Assembly: GCA_029855935.1 (NCBI GenBank)
Contig: JAGSHN010000016.1
Coordinates: 124,001-188,000, forward strand
Reading direction: 5' to 3'
From: Candidatus Thorarchaeota archaeon
GTDB taxonomy: Archaea > Asgardarchaeota > Thorarchaeia > Thorarchaeales > Thorarchaeaceae
Length of the DNA stretch: 64,000 bases
The first letter of the stretch is position 1. Every line of letters starts with the position of its first letter. Made by a program: the position numbers and the translations under genes. Below, one piece after another: positions 17,567-24,425 of this stretch. The notes beneath the pieces are model-generated. The model was not told where the DNA came from and did not search any database. It saw only the letters and a list, made by a program, of their open reading frames with translations.

Positions 17567-18964
17567 ATGACCGGCAAGCTGTTTGGAACGACCGGAGTCA
17601 GAAAGGTCTACGGGACAGAGTTCGATATCGAGATGGCACTGAGGCTGGGTAAGGCTCTTGGCACGTATCTGAAGGAGGGCACCGTGCTGATGGCGCGCGA
17701 CGCCCGGACGACAGGCCTGATGATCGAGTCGGCATTGGCCGCAGGCCTGATGTCAACAGGCGTCAATGTGGTCCGTGCAGGAATGGTCCCAACACCGACA
17801 CTGGCGTTTGGCACGAAGTTTCACGGCCTCACTGCTGGTGTGATGATCACGGCCTCCCACAACCCTCCTGAGTACACCGGCGTGAAGTTCTGGCAGGGCG
17901 ACTCAATGGGCTTTTCTCCGGAGCGTGAACGCGAGATTGAGGCGATATACAACAGTGGTGAGTTCAAGACCGCACCGTGGGACAGCCTCGGGACCGAGTC
18001 GCAGATCGACACGCTCGTAGAGGACCATATCTCCGAGATTCTCTCCAGATGCGATGCTGATACAATCCGGTCGCGTGAATTCCGTGTGGTCGTCGACCCT
18101 GGCAACGGCGCTGCCTCCGTGCTCACACCCTATCTTCTGCGTCGCTTGGGCTGCGACGTGATCAGTCTGAACAGCCAGCCCGACGGTACGTTTCCCGGGC
18201 GTCCGTCAGAACCTGATGAGTCCACACTCGGTGACCTCGTCAATACTGTTCGTGCGACCGGGGCTGATCTTGGTGTGGCACATGACGGCGACTCTGACCG
18301 CGTGGTGTTTGTCACGGGCAAGGGCGAGATTATCAGAGGGGACCGGACAATAGCTCTTCTCGCCCGCGAGATGCTTCGGTTGCAGAGCAGTGGTGATGAC
18401 AGGGATGGTACGATAGTCACCACCGTGGACAGCTCACGTGTCCTTGATGAGGCGGTTGCAAATGCGGGAGGTCGGACGATTCGCACGCCCGTCGGCGACA
18501 TTCAGGTCGCCATCAAGGTGAGAGAGACGAACGCACTACTCGGTGGTGAGGCGTGTGGCGTCTTTATATTCCCTGAGTTCCATCTCGCCCCTGAGCCTTT
18601 CCTCGCCGTGTGCAGGGTCCTCGAGACAATGGCCCGTTCCGGAGAGAGCTTTGACTCGCTGATCTCTACAATCCCAGTATACCCGCTCAGGAAGACGAAG
18701 TTGTCCTGTCCGAACGAGCATAAGGCTGCTGTGATGAAACGTCTGACCGAGATGGTCCCATCGGAGATGGAGGGCGTGTCCGATGTGATCACGGTGGACG
18801 GTGTTGGCGTCGTGCTGTCAGATGGCTGGGTACTCATTCGCCCCTCCGGGACAGAGCCAGTCATCAGGATAACCTGTGAGGCCTCTACAGACAAGGCTGT
18901 CGAGAGCATAGTCGCTGCTGCCGCCAGACTTGTCGAGCGTGCGATACGCGAGACTGTCGGATGA
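17567..18964 (+). CDS. glmM: Phosphoglucosamine mutase / phosphomannomutase family
   Basis: GVMITASHNPPEYTGVKFW, AHDGDSDRVVFV, RPSGTEPVIRITCE. Confidence 0.88.
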   Translation: MTGKLFGTTGVRKVYGTEFDIEMALRLGKALGTYLKEGTVLMARDARTTGLMIESALAAGLMSTGVNVVRAGMVPTPTLAFGTKFHGLTAGVMITASHNPPEYTGVKFWQGDSMGFSPEREREIEAIYNSGEFKTAPWDSLGTESQIDTLVEDHISEILSRCDADTIRSREFRVVVDPGNGAASVLTPYLLRRLGCDVISLNSQPDGTFPGRPSEPDESTLGDLVNTVRATGADLGVAHDGDSDRVVFVTGKGEIIRGDRTIALLAREMLRLQSSGDDRDGTIVTTVDSSRVLDEAVANAGGRTIRTPVGDIQVAIKVRETNALLGGEACGVFIFPEFHLAPEPFLAVCRVLETMARSGESFDSLISTIPVYPLRKTKLSCPNEHKAAVMKRLTEMVPSEMEGVSDVITVDGVGVVLSDGWVLIRPSGTEPVIRITCEASTDKAVESIVAAAARLVERAIRETVG

Positions 18965-19024: not shown

Positions 19025-19441
19025 ATGAGCGAAGATGATGACTTCATCAAGGAAGAGTTCGAGTGGGCGCTGAAAGATCCCACAGAGGAGAAGCTCAGGA
19101 GCCTTGGTGAGGTGGTCAGCACCATCACCAAGAAGCTCGTCGAGGCGATAAGTGAGCTTCAGAATGATGTCTATCAGCTCCAGACACAGCTCCAGAGCCT
19201 GCAGTCCAAGATGAGCAGTCTTGAGAACAGGATGGCAACTGTGCGCGCTGCTCCGGCTGCGGCGGGCGGCGGTGCTGCTGCGAAGGCCCCGGAGGCAGCT
19301 CCGACCTCCGCACCGGCAGTTGCTGCAGCTGCTGCGCCCAAGGCACCTCCGCCACGTGCACCCTCCGGACCGATGGCTATGATGGGCGAGCTGAAGGCGC
19401 TCCTTGCAGCTCGGCGGAGAAAGGCCGAGGGTGGCGAGTGA
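19025..19441 (+). CDS. Coiled-coil, Ala/Pro-rich linker protein with Ena/VASP-GAB-like C-terminal motif
   Basis: SELQNDVYQLQTQLQSLQSKMSSLENRM coiled coil; APKAPPPRAPSGP linker; PMAMMGELKALLAARRRKAEGGE tail. Confidence 0.75.
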   Translation: MSEDDDFIKEEFEWALKDPTEEKLRSLGEVVSTITKKLVEAISELQNDVYQLQTQLQSLQSKMSSLENRMATVRAAPAAAGGGAAAKAPEAAPTSAPAVAAAAAPKAPPPRAPSGPMAMMGELKALLAARRRKAEGGE

Positions 19442-19479: not shown

Positions 19480-20151
19480 TCAGAGCAGAGTCTGCACACT
19501 GTTCTGATGGTAGAACGGTCCCGCGTGACGCGGGAGGTACACTGTGAATGCCTCCGCCCTGTCGCAGGCGGCTTGCACGCCCCTGAGCCTAGTTCTCGCA
19601 TCGTACAGGCGTGGATAGAAGCCTCCAGCCTTCTCCACCTGCGACTGGTGCTGTCTGAGTGCGTCGAGGGCAGTGTCGTAGCTGCTGGTGATGTCCACCA
19701 TCACGTTGGGATGAGTGATCAGCGAGTTGATCTCCATAAAGTAGACTCTCTCCACCCTGTGGGCATCATCGTACTGGGTGACGTGGGACGCCCACTCGAC
19801 TGCCTCGACCACCACTCTCGAGGTCTCCACATGCGCTCTGTTGTAGTCATCCTGAGAGTGGGTCATCACTATCTGTGGACGTGTCCGGATGATTGCATCT
19901 GCGACCTCTCTCACGAGCGCGAGACTGATGTCAAAGTCATCTCTCTCACTGGTCAGCACCAGATCCGCACCCAGTCTCCTGCAGGCTGCCCTGAGCTCTG
20001 CATTTCGCTGTTCGTTGCCCGTCAGGCAGAGGACGCCAACACGGTGTCCACAAGTCGTGTGGTTGGCTATGGTGCCTCCCGCTCCTATGCATTCATCGTC
20101 GGGATGAGCGCATACAACAAGGATTGACTGCTCGACCGGCTCGTCGGCCAT
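19480..20151 (-). CDS. bshB: PIG-L/LmbE family de-N-acetylase (BshB-like)
   Basis: ILVVCAHPDDECIGAGGTIANH; MTHSQDDYNRAHVETSRVV; likely ATG at 20151. Confidence 0.75.
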   Translation of the reverse strand: MADEPVEQSILVVCAHPDDECIGAGGTIANHTTCGHRVGVLCLTGNEQRNAELRAACRRLGADLVLTSERDDFDISLALVREVADAIIRTRPQIVMTHSQDDYNRAHVETSRVVVEAVEWASHVTQYDDAHRVERVYFMEINSLITHPNVMVDITSSYDTALDALRQHQSQVEKAGGFYPRLYDARTRLRGVQAACDRAEAFTVYLPRHAGPFYHQNSVQTLL

Positions 20152-20238
20152 AGTGAGATCCTTGTCAAGCGCACAAATCAGTTTACCTAATTCGGCTCCT
20201 TTATCTTGGCTATCATCGACCCTTGGTGGGTGCCCTCG

Positions 20239-21393
20239 GTGCGCATAGGAGTGAACCTGTTTCCATCGGTCGGAGGGTCCGGAAACCTCGCCACAAGACT
20301 CGGAGAACATCTCGCGGATAGGGGTCATATCATCCACTTCATATCGTACCAGAAACCATTCTCGTTGATGTGGCAGCAGCCGAAGGGCGTCTACGTTGAC
20401 CTTGTGGACAACTTTGACTATCCGCTCTTCAAGGACATAGGTTCTCCGTATGGTGTCGCTCTCTCATCCAAGATCGTCCGCGTCAGCCGTTCCGCCAATC
20501 TCGACGTTGTTCACTCTCACTATGCGATACCCCACGCGATGGCAGCGTTCGTGGCAAGGGAGATAACTGGTGTCCCCTATGTGGTGACACTGCACGGCTC
20601 TGATGTGCACACACTGGGCATCGACCCGGCGTACAGACCGATCGTGAAGCATACTGTACAGCACGCTGATGCCGTCACAACTGTTGCTGAGTTTCTGAGA
20701 CAGAAGGCGCTCAACGAGCTTGGCATCGAGCGTGAGATAGAGGTCATCCCAAACTTCATTGACGTGCAGACGTTCAGACGTGCCGAGGGGCTTCGCCTCG
20801 TTGTCGAGAGCGGTTGTGTTGCTCTACGTAGCGGAACCGAGACGATCGACCCAGAGGAGCGAGTGATACTTCACGCCTCCAACTTCAGACCCGTCAAGCG
20901 CGTGGTCGATCTCATAGACGCGATGCGTCTTGTCGTCGACGAGCTACCACGCACACGCCTCGTCATTGCGGGGGATGGGCCGACAAGGATACAGGTGGAG
21001 CGCAGGATCGAGGAGCTAGGCCTGTGTGATAATGTTCACCTGCTCGGCATAAAGAGCAACATGCGTGAGCTGATGTGTACGGCCGACCTGTTCGTTCTCA
21101 ACTCGACGGTCGAGGGAATGCCTCTCGTTCTTCTTGAGGCAATGGCATGTTCGGTGCCTGTGGTGACAACTCCTGCAGGCGGTGTTCCCGAACTCGTACG
21201 CCCGGGAGTCGATGGTGTGGTAACCGAGGGCTTTGAGACAGAGGAGCTGGCATCTGCCATCATCGAGACTCTGGAGGACGATGTCCGTCGCCAGTCGTTG
21301 GGCCGTGCTGGACGGCGTCGCGTCGAGGAGAGCTTCTCAGCATCAGCAGTTGTGCCACGCTACGAGCGACTCTTTGAAGAGGTAATCGAGTAG
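20239..21393 (+). CDS. bshA: GT4 glycosyltransferase, BshA-like (N-acetylglucosaminyl L-malate synthase)
   Basis: RIGVNLFPSVGGSGNLATRLG, HSHYAIPHAMAAF, VTLHGSDVHTLGIDP, IPNFIDVQTF, ILHASNFRPVKRV; likely GTG at 20239. Confidence 0.82.
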   Translation: MRIGVNLFPSVGGSGNLATRLGEHLADRGHIIHFISYQKPFSLMWQQPKGVYVDLVDNFDYPLFKDIGSPYGVALSSKIVRVSRSANLDVVHSHYAIPHAMAAFVAREITGVPYVVTLHGSDVHTLGIDPAYRPIVKHTVQHADAVTTVAEFLRQKALNELGIEREIEVIPNFIDVQTFRRAEGLRLVVESGCVALRSGTETIDPEERVILHASNFRPVKRVVDLIDAMRLVVDELPRTRLVIAGDGPTRIQVERRIEELGLCDNVHLLGIKSNMRELMCTADLFVLNSTVEGMPLVLLEAMACSVPVVTTPAGGVPELVRPGVDGVVTEGFETEELASAIIETLEDDVRRQSLGRAGRRRVEESFSASAVVPRYERLFEEVIE

Positions 21394-21404
21394 GAGTCTG
21401 ATGT

Positions 21405-23147
21405 GTGACGATGAACGGCAGCGTGACCTCAGCATACGACGCATATCTCGCAACAGGAGAGAACGCGGACCTGGTGCGGTATCTGTATGATGATCCTCCC
21501 GTGACGCTCAGAGCGGTGGCCCGGCGCATCCCCTCGGTGATGGAGGAGTTCTCACGCCGGGATGACTGGTTCTCGGAGGAGCGCATTCGTCGCTTGCAGG
21601 CGGCTCTCATTGCTGAGAGCAAGAGACTCGGCTCTCTGACGCCCCGCGTCCGAGAGTCAATCGATCACATTCACGAGGGTGTTGTTGAGGCTGCACATCA
21701 GAGTGTTGTGCTTGGTGGGCCTGCGTTCGTCTTGAACAAGGCGGCAACGTCAGTGGCAATCGTCCGCACAGCAAGGGCCCTGGCTATATCTGCAGTGCCA
21801 TTCTTCTGCGTCGCAGACTATGATGAGGTCCAGCCAGAGCTCACCCACATCAGGACTCCTCTTCTCGGTCACGAGGGGGTGCTCATCCGCGTTCCCGTGC
21901 CGGAGGGGTACGAGAGGTCACCAGTAAGCGCCCTGCCCCTGCCTGGCCCGACTTGGTATGAGGAGTTGGAGGAGAGTATTCGAGAGGGCTACAGGCCGCT
22001 GTTCAAGACCCTTGAGGGCACTGCGAGAACTCTATACCATGAGCGTCTTGAGCAGGCCCTCTCGATGGCTCGCTGGGCCTATCACAGTTCGACGACAATG
22101 GGAGAGTGGGGGACGCGTATCATGGGGCATCTATTCAACATCGAGGGCGACCTCGGTATCCCGCTGTATCCCGCCTCCTCCCACGAGCTCCGAAGGCTCT
22201 GGGTCACAGGAATGGAGCTCCTCCTCCGAGAGGATGTCCGTGAGGTCTTCCTGTCCGTACAGAGTGACACAACGAAGCGTATCACCGACCGTGGACTCAG
22301 ACCGGGACTCTCACCGCGCGACAGGCAGTACGTCCCGTTCTTCTACGAGTGTCCCAACGAGGACTGTCACCGCCAACGCGTTCGTCTAGACTATGAACGC
22401 CGCGGGGACAGGATTGAGATTCTCGGCCAATGTACCGGCTGCGGCGATAGAGTGGTCATCGAGACCTCTGCAGAGGATCCCGATCTTGGAGAACACGCCC
22501 ATCTGTTGTCCCCAAGGGTCGACTCGCGACAGTTCATTATCGACACGGCGGTACCGGTGGCAGTCCACGTTGGCGGCCCTGGCGAGGCTGCCTACTATTC
22601 TCAGGTGATTCCGGTAGCCAGAGCGTTGGAGGTGCCGTTTCCAGTCTTTGTGAAGTATACGCGCGTCTACTTCAACACTCCCTGGGCTGAGAGACTCGGC
22701 AAGAGCCTTGCCGCACGGGGCCTTCCCGTTCTGCACGAGTCCACTCTCTTCAAGTATGTTGGCAAGGTGGCGCGTCTGAGGAAGAAAGGCCGCTACGGGG
22801 AGATGTATAGCATCCTGAATCAGCTTGAGGAGTTCATCCGGGCGCGGGAGCGTGACATGATAGCAAGACTCGCCCAGCTCGGGCAGAATACACCAGCCGA
22901 TGGGGGCACTGCTGAGACGGACGCTGACAAAGAGCATCTCACAAGGACACGAACGGACCTCCAGACCTACTTGAGCTGGACCTACGGACGGTACGCTCCG
23001 GAGAAGAGTGCTCAAGAGGCCTCGTGGTCATGGATTGAGTGGGCGGTGAATGCGGGATTCTCTGACCTGTTCGGCCCCTATGAGCGGATGTACGTGCCTG
23101 ACGCGAGAGTGGGCGGCACGCAGTTTGTCAATCTCGGGCTCGTGTGA
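21405..23147 (+). CDS. bshC: BshC-like putative cysteine-adding enzyme with zinc-ribbon insertion
   Basis: VVLGGPAFVLNKAATSVAIVRTARAL...VPFFCVADYDEVQPELTHIRTP; VHVGGPGEAAYYSQVIPVARALEVPFPVFVKYTRV; CPNEDCH...CTGC insertion. Confidence 0.7.
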   Translation: MTMNGSVTSAYDAYLATGENADLVRYLYDDPPVTLRAVARRIPSVMEEFSRRDDWFSEERIRRLQAALIAESKRLGSLTPRVRESIDHIHEGVVEAAHQSVVLGGPAFVLNKAATSVAIVRTARALAISAVPFFCVADYDEVQPELTHIRTPLLGHEGVLIRVPVPEGYERSPVSALPLPGPTWYEELEESIREGYRPLFKTLEGTARTLYHERLEQALSMARWAYHSSTTMGEWGTRIMGHLFNIEGDLGIPLYPASSHELRRLWVTGMELLLREDVREVFLSVQSDTTKRITDRGLRPGLSPRDRQYVPFFYECPNEDCHRQRVRLDYERRGDRIEILGQCTGCGDRVVIETSAEDPDLGEHAHLLSPRVDSRQFIIDTAVPVAVHVGGPGEAAYYSQVIPVARALEVPFPVFVKYTRVYFNTPWAERLGKSLAARGLPVLHESTLFKYVGKVARLRKKGRYGEMYSILNQLEEFIRARERDMIARLAQLGQNTPADGGTAETDADKEHLTRTRTDLQTYLSWTYGRYAPEKSAQEASWSWIEWAVNAGFSDLFGPYERMYVPDARVGGTQFVNLGLV

Positions 23148-23153
23148 TGCAGG

Positions 23154-24425
23154 TCACCCGAGCTCCTTGGTGAGCAGCTGGCCCAGTCTTGTGACACCCA
23201 CCTCAATCTCTTCTTCATCGGCATACGAGAAGCCCAGTCTCATTGTGTTTGGCTGAACCTTGCTGTCGACCAGATCGGTGCCGTCCTCGTTCAGGCTGTA
23301 GCCCGTCAGCGGATAGAATGGTCCCCCTGGCACGTAGATCACATCGTTGGGGATGGCCACGTCCATCATGAACTTCTTGCTGTCAAAGTCCTTCTTCTCG
23401 CTCTCCCACCAGATGAAGAATCCGCCTGTCGGGTCAGTTCTCTCACCAGCCGGGAACGACTCATCTATCGCCTTGGCCATCGCCTTGTAGCGCTTGTAGT
23501 ACTCTGGCACACTCCTCTTCATTGCGTCATCGATGTACTTGGAGTAGTACTCATCTAGGACTCTCTGCACAAGTGTGGATGTGCACAGGTCAAGGTATCC
23601 CTTGTCCTTCAGCACCTGTTCTTTTATCGCCGGGGGCAACACGGAATAGCCCACACGTAGTACAGCGGCCTCCTTGCTCGTCGTGCCAAGATACGCCACG
23701 CGGGAGTTCTCTTTGTCGAGGGTCTTGATTGCTGGCAGAGTCTTCTTGAACTGGATCTCTGCATAGGCGCAGTCCTCCACGAGCAGGACATTGTGGGTCT
23801 CACAGATGTCGAACAACGCCTGCCGCCTCGACATCGGCAGTGTGGTGCCCTTCGGATTATCAGAGTCAGGCACGACATACAGCATGTCAGGCGTTCTGCC
23901 GAACTTGACCTTAGACAGATGGATTGCTCTCTCCACGTACTCGGGGATTATCCCATCGAGGTCCGTGGGGACAGTCACAATCCTCGCTCCGAGCTTGACA
24001 GCAGGCACGAGAAAGCCGAGATAGGAGGGTGAGGGCGTTATTATGACATCGCCCGTGTCAATGAGGGTATCAAGCAGTGCGTAGAGCGCCTGCTGACTGC
24101 CGTTTGTGATTGTGACATTCTCCCACTCGGTCTCGGGATCGATGGGCAGATTCCTCACATCGTGGAGGCGCCTTGCCAGCGTCTTCAGAAACCACGGCTG
24201 ACCGCCTGTCGGACCATAGTTGAGGTCCTCTATTGCCAGCTCAGGGTTCTCCTTGTATAGCTCGCTCAGGTGCGCAAGAATCTCAGCAAAGGCGTCTGTG
24301 GGGATCACTCCTGGCTTTCCGCCGGCGAAGTAGTACTTGACCTTGTATCTCAAGAGAGCACGAATCTGCGATTCTGCGATAAAGCTAGTCCACGTCGCCA
24401 ACGCGAATCCATTCTGTTTGTTCAT
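23154..24425 (-). CDS. PLP-dependent class I/II aminotransferase (2-aminoadipate/aromatic type)
   Basis: ITNGSQQALYALLDTLIDTGDVIITPSPSYLGFL; VVPDSDNPKGTTLPMSRRQAL; YLGTTSKEAAVLRVGY. Confidence 0.9.
   Translation of the reverse strand: MNKQNGFALATWTSFIAESQIRALLRYKVKYYFAGGKPGVIPTDAFAEILAHLSELYKENPELAIEDLNYGPTGGQPWFLKTLARRLHDVRNLPIDPETEWENVTITNGSQQALYALLDTLIDTGDVIITPSPSYLGFLVPAVKLGARIVTVPTDLDGIIPEYVERAIHLSKVKFGRTPDMLYVVPDSDNPKGTTLPMSRRQALFDICETHNVLLVEDCAYAEIQFKKTLPAIKTLDKENSRVAYLGTTSKEAAVLRVGYSVLPPAIKEQVLKDKGYLDLCTSTLVQRVLDEYYSKYIDDAMKRSVPEYYKRYKAMAKAIDESFPAGERTDPTGGFFIWWESEKKDFDSKKFMMDVAIPNDVIYVPGGPFYPLTGYSLNEDGTDLVDSKVQPNTMRLGFSYADEEEIEVGVTRLGQLLTKELG

Follow-up and report, generated by a model that had tools for sequence, protein, structure and literature searches.

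The window analysed here is a stretch of 64,000 nucleotides (nt) of contig JAGSHN010000016.1 (positions 124,001 to 188,000, forward strand), from a Candidatus Thorarchaeota archaeon whose genome is 2.97 Mb and 97% complete. It carries three adjoining genes whose products belong to the BshA, BshB, and BshC families of bacillithiol synthesis. In window positions, bshB (19480..20151, minus strand) encodes a BshB-like PIG-L zinc deacetylase, putatively acting on N-acetylglucosaminyl malate (GlcNAc-malate), and is divergent from bshA (20239..21393, plus strand), which encodes a glycosyltransferase family 4 (GT4) N-acetyl-glucosaminyl L-malate synthase; bshC (21405..23147, plus strand) encodes a 580-amino-acid BshC homologue of an archaeal type, a putative cysteine:glucosaminyl malate (GlcN-malate) ligase. 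An earlier model's reading, made from the sequence only (the sequence-only reading), had claimed a complete bacillithiol-type pathway in this arrangement, and all three frames are present and placed as it described, with 11 nt separating the bshA stop (21393) from the bshC GTG start (21405). The likely bshB start is ATG 20151 on the reverse strand, giving a gene shorter than the listed frame from GTG 20337. For bshA, GTG 20239 is likelier than TTG 20206 and directly precedes the conserved MRIGV; the divergent intergenic region (20152..20238) is 87 nt if that start is used.

By the NCBI cut-off the bshA product is a BshA equivalog, scoring 366.5 bits against the TIGR03999 equivalog model (cut-off 273.7). 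The nearest solved structures are the BshA enzymes 2JJM, 3MBO, and 5D00 (1e-72 to 4e-73), and in alignment the protein retains their SVGGSG, HYAIPHA, TLHGxD, NFID, and SNFRxVKR motifs, so that the identification in the sequence-only reading stands. In the BshA tree the Thor-, Hermod-, and Bathyarchaeota sequences form one clade (support 100/99), separate from bacterial BshA and from the BshA of one Asgard family, f11. The bshB product matches PF02585 (PIG-L) at 67.3 bits (cut-off 28.2). Its residues H16, D18, D19, D102, and H107 are invariant in an alignment (A8) that takes in bacterial-type BshB and the BshB of other archaea, and its zinc-binding and catalytic motifs, AHPDDE and a third histidine (YNRAH), are conserved.

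The third protein has diverged from its bacterial counterpart. It matches PF10079, the N-terminal Rossmann-like BshC domain, at 58.4 bits (cut-off 27), and TIGR03998 is the sole NCBIfam match for all 26 Asgard BshC sequences of alignment A2. A profile of these 26 sequences found one real match in the PDB, Bacillus subtilis BshC (4WBD, E 3.8e-23), and hhalign aligned the archaeal with five bacterial-type BshC sequences (99.8%, E 5.8e-30) over nearly the full length, including the coiled coil and the C-terminal QE motif. The AlphaFold (AF2) model is confident (predicted local distance difference test, pLDDT, 90.5; predicted template modelling score, pTM, 0.91), and its top Foldseek match is again 4WBD (E 1.3e-17, prob 1.00, template modelling (TM) score 0.61-0.65). 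Ten residues are common to archaeal and bacterial BshC: Q99, G105, K112, D140, E145, F312, R325, G391, E394, and Y397. The alignment by eye of GGPAFVLNKA and VHVGGPGEAAYY with BshC motifs proved correct, and the BshC-like nature of 21405-23147 is borne out by profile, profile-profile, and fold comparison alike. A viral fold library searched with the model gave nothing informative (best E 2.6e-5, TM 0.34; the rest weak, several of them viral tRNA ligases). Since the protein is BshC-like by all tests run except the equivalog score, we class it as a member of a separate archaeal BshC subfamily and not as an equivalog.

What sets this subfamily apart is a strand-rich Cys4 insert (22350..22442, plus strand; PFFYECPNEDC...GQCTGCG), a segment that, judging by its motif, would bind zinc as a ribbon. 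Its cysteines, C316, C321, C343, and C346, are invariant in 23 Thor-, Hermod-, Heimdall-, and Bathyarchaeota sequences (alignment A4); one or two are lost in Asgard families f5 to f7, and none of the four occurs in bacterial-type sequences. In the BshC tree 30 archaeal-type sequences split from the bacterial type with 100/100 support, the branches being very long, at 2.2 and 1.31 changes per column; two Asgard sequences, both of family f11, fall on the bacterial-type side.

The window BshC, used as query, found relatives in 111 of the 228 Asgard genomes surveyed (including one, G178, that holds a remote paralogue only), and BshA above the TIGR03999 cut-off occurs in 90. A scan of named genomes, using a profile narrower than the 26-sequence Asgard one, placed archaeal-type BshC in Thorarchaeota, Hermodarchaeota, and Heimdallarchaeota and in four Bathyarchaeota. 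The three genes adjoin in Thor-, Hermod-, and Bathyarchaeota, in varying order and orientation; that the trio is kept together despite this shuffling speaks for a functional tie and against mere inheritance of the gene order. The G178 protein (L051:6306-8021, minus strand) was considered as a true archaeal BshC and rejected: it matches neither PF10079 nor TIGR03998 and carries a WbqC-like HQPNFLP motif. It has Cys pairs of its own, its genome abounds in GT4 candidates, and it suggests a wider BshC-like superfamily.

Departures from the common set were found. Family f11 has a bacterial-type bshC-bshB1-bshA operon with a ribbonless BshC (L108:347-2619, L109:1285-3560), as well as DinB genes; its BshB1 scores above the equivalog cut-off, which together with the gene order points to acquisition of a bacterial operon, so that Asgard archaea have the pathway in two forms. 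An apparent absence of BshC from f11 was dismissed, the bacterial-type gene beside bshB1-bshA encoding a protein too distant from the window query. Families f19 and f20 have GT2-BshB1-BshC operons, in which a glycosyltransferase of family 2 (GT2; assigned by eye from sequence) takes the place of BshA (L047:4246-7574, L048:5883-9211, L049:2492-5823). Families f9 and f10 have BshC and no BshA above the cut-off, and near the f9 BshB1-like genes, at four loci, no substitute glycosyltransferase was found. Families f9, f10, f19, and f20 may make a different thiol.

Upstream of the trio, the phosphoglucosamine mutase noted in the sequence-only reading is an archaeal GlmM (17567..18964, plus strand; TIGR03990, 524.5 bits against a cut-off of 439), the likely source of the UDP-N-acetylglucosamine (UDP-GlcNAc) precursor; it is a conserved neighbour in Thorarchaeota only. 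Between glmM and bshB lies a gene for a 138-amino-acid, Ala/Pro-rich coiled-coil protein (19025-19441, plus strand) that has no family match and is kept in Thorarchaeota. Downstream, a pyridoxal phosphate-dependent aminotransferase gene (23154..24425, minus strand), identified by profile matches and synteny, is convergent with bshC; this arrangement occurs throughout Thorarchaeota and also in family f9, where bshC has no BshA neighbour (L037-L040). Named relatives in the window's family are nearly all labelled Candidatus Thorarchaeota, which are Asgard archaea (a contig of the same genus is JAGSHP010000242.1), and the order GlmM, small coiled-coil protein, BshB, BshA, BshC, aminotransferase, PyrF is syntenic across Thorarchaeota, which makes contamination or a chance juxtaposition in assembly very unlikely.

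We think it quite probable that all three steps of a pathway to bacillithiol, or to a compound very close to it, are encoded here, and that the product would serve as the low-molecular-weight thiol of the cell. BshA would join UDP-GlcNAc and L-malate to give GlcNAc-malate; BshB would remove the acetyl group to leave GlcN-malate; and BshC of the archaeal type, a ligase resembling class I synthetases and bearing a zinc ribbon, would couple cysteine to the free amine through an amide bond. The resulting thiol would be used at least by S-transferases of the DinB superfamily. Several archaeal groups with this gene set are probably makers of a bacillithiol-like thiol. The original claim of a complete pathway is supported, with an amendment for BshC, which is a zinc-ribbon subfamily of its own and not an equivalog. 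What the analysis observed is the genes themselves, with their families, conserved active-site residues, fold, linkage, and co-occurrence; the substrates, the preference of BshC for cysteine and its amide chemistry, and the identity and use of the product are what we infer.

Several points weigh against this proposal. The BshB score against the BshB1 equivalog model TIGR04001 (88.4 bits, E 5.4e-25) falls under the cut-off of 182.5, and that of the BshC homologue against TIGR03998 (64 bits, E 1.2e-17) falls far under 265.8. The activity of bacterial BshC itself was without in vitro demonstration as of PMC4360819, and there is no measurement of a thiol from an archaeon that carries these genes (PMC7278568). 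The redox partners familiar from Bacillus are lacking: the bacilliredoxins BrxA/BrxB (PF06491), which the sequence-only reading had proposed as a check, occur in 0 of the 228 Asgard genomes, the B. subtilis control being positive, and for YpdA (TIGR04018) the best match in the window genome reaches 88 bits against a cut-off of 339.9, with only four of the 228 genomes above it, all of family f8. These four (G039, G037 [L121, L122], G033, and G041) are Heimdall-type and also have BshA and BshC.

The DinB/YfiT superfamily includes known bacillithiol S-transferases (PMC4360819, PMC5815605), and its DinB_2 family follows BshC in the survey. The window genome has one match (E 2e-6), and 41 of the 47 members of its family have DinB_2. 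Among Asgard genomes it is present in 104 of 119 that bear BshC versus 13 of 109 others (Fisher p 5e-33), and within family f20, with its patchy distribution of BshC, in 6/9 with BshC versus 2/56 without (p 3e-5), these tests counting related genomes as independent, which also tells against the proposal. All four BshC-bearing Bathyarchaeota have DinB_2 versus 75 of 257 genomes across the class, a one-sided comparison, most of the class being without BshC status; the latter figure is a further point against, as it means that the family is not exclusive to bacillithiol users. The co-occurrence supports a thiol cofactor, though DinB_2 is not bacillithiol-specific. Expansions of DinB_2 occur in Asgard lineages with bacillithiol genes, two genomes (G052 and G205) having 13 copies each.

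Other products of the same genes have to be weighed. The thiol could be a variant on the same scaffold, with an aglycone other than malate, or with another amino acid or a modification in place of plain cysteine. The divergence of archaeal BshC, seen in its branch lengths and its ribbon, would suit such a product, as would the operons of f19 and f20, in which a related archaeal BshC stands without BshA, and the BshC of f9 and f10; the ligase family is evidently compatible with other glycosyl steps. We nevertheless regard a variant as rather unlikely at this locus: BshA of the window's lineage is a clear equivalog, which makes malate the most likely aglycone there, and residues of the catalytic region are common to archaeal and bacterial BshC. 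Far less probable still is that a GT4 enzyme, a PIG-L deacetylase, and an amino-acid ligase together decorate a surface glycan or lipid and no thiol is made. The GT4 and PIG-L families are both large and have many functions involving glycans, and the remote BshC-like protein with the HQPNFLP motif does occur in a very GT4-rich genome, but the BshA score above its equivalog cut-off, the linkage of the trio across phyla, and the tracking of BshC by genes of a thiol S-transferase superfamily all speak for a thiol.

The low BshB and BshC scores might also be read as loss of function, in a pathway partly decayed or repurposed. Against this, frames are intact and residues conserved in 42 of the 47 genomes of the window's family, which indicates purifying selection, and we give decay hardly any credence, marginally less than glycan decoration. 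Synthesis of bacillithiol, or of a thiol very close to it, remains the reading that we favour.

Part of this was foreshadowed. A 2020 review (PMC7278568) counted 39 InterPro matches for BshA and as many for BshC in archaea, most of them Asgard, and suggested that archaea may make bacillithiol; a survey (PMC6282198) deals with bacteria and makes no mention of archaea. Bacillithiol, a small protective thiol, is so far known from bacteria only, without a report from any archaeon, and for many archaea the main small thiol is not known (PMC7278568). As Asgard BshA and BshC were already listed, the bare claim of pathway genes in an archaeon is not new and is less surprising, while the linkage to BshB is new. 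So are the zinc-ribbon clade, the Bathyarchaeota clusters, the DinB association, the GT2-BshB-BshC variant, and the bacterial-type operon in one Asgard family. In the literature searched, whose scope excluded most subscription papers and all bioRxiv preprints, we found nothing that describes the clustering of the genes, BshB, the Cys4 ribbon, the gene sets of Bathyarchaeota, or the link with DinB. The surprise is raised again by a distinct BshC with its zinc ribbon, by linkage across phyla, and by the variant operons. With linked and conserved BshABC across Asgard lineages and Bathyarchaeota, archaeal bacillithiol becomes a directly testable question; the BshC with the zinc ribbon provides a second and very distant version of an enzyme with an unsolved mechanism and may reveal the origin of BshC; and a further thiol, possibly of an undescribed amino-sugar type, is suggested by the GT2-BshB-BshC operons.

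Among enzymes of known structure, B. subtilis BshC (4WBD) is the best match to the archaeal protein in both fold and profile, but the global TM score is only 0.61-0.65, the two share only about 14% identity in structural alignment and the bacterial sequence has no zinc ribbon. MshC, the mycothiol ligase, and cysteinyl-tRNA synthetase are class-I-like Rossmann ligases acting on cysteine, and both are weak fold matches to the archaeal model (E about 0.07-0.3). The second-best fold match is a class I lysyl-tRNA synthetase (LysRS), 1IRX (E 1.4e-8, prob 1.00), with a TM score of just 0.32-0.38. In profile-profile alignment, archaeal class I LysRS has a Cys4 ribbon and, after it, an LxxRVD motif, in the same order as archaeal BshC; hhalign gives a score of 40.2 (E 6e-4, probability 30%), compared with 24.0 for the best of 60 column shuffles, 19.2 for the reversed profile, and 23.1 for bacterial BshC. 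Archaeal BshC differs in having no HIGH motif, and the functions are clearly different. Zinc ribbons may look alike through convergence, and with the probability of 30% this makes the kinship a lead only; BshC and lysyl-tRNA synthetase were not found mentioned together in the literature searched. As a tentative idea, possible but short of probable, archaea may hold their own branch of amino-sugar thiols, in which the zinc-ribbon BshC links class I LysRS-like enzymes to the ribbonless bacterial BshC and the ligase is paired, lineage by lineage, with GT4 BshA, GT2, or another glycosyltransferase, yielding bacillithiol and at least one undescribed thiol.

The review of Asgard BshA and BshC (PMC7278568) concerns the same families in the same superphylum and suggests the same product, but it gives counts only, without BshB, gene linkage, the zinc ribbon, the split between archaeal-type and bacterial-type BshC, or the association with S-transferases. 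Compared with the BshA-BshB-BshC system of Bacillota and Deinococcota, the archaeal one differs in that its BshC is a separate Cys4-ribbon clade far under the equivalog cut-off, that the window locus has all three genes adjacent, and that the window genome has neither BrxA/B nor a YpdA above the cut-off. It resembles that system in its three homologous enzymes, with a BshA equivalog, a BshB that keeps the zinc and catalytic residues, and a BshC that keeps the fold and ten invariant residues, and in the accompanying genes of the DinB superfamily.

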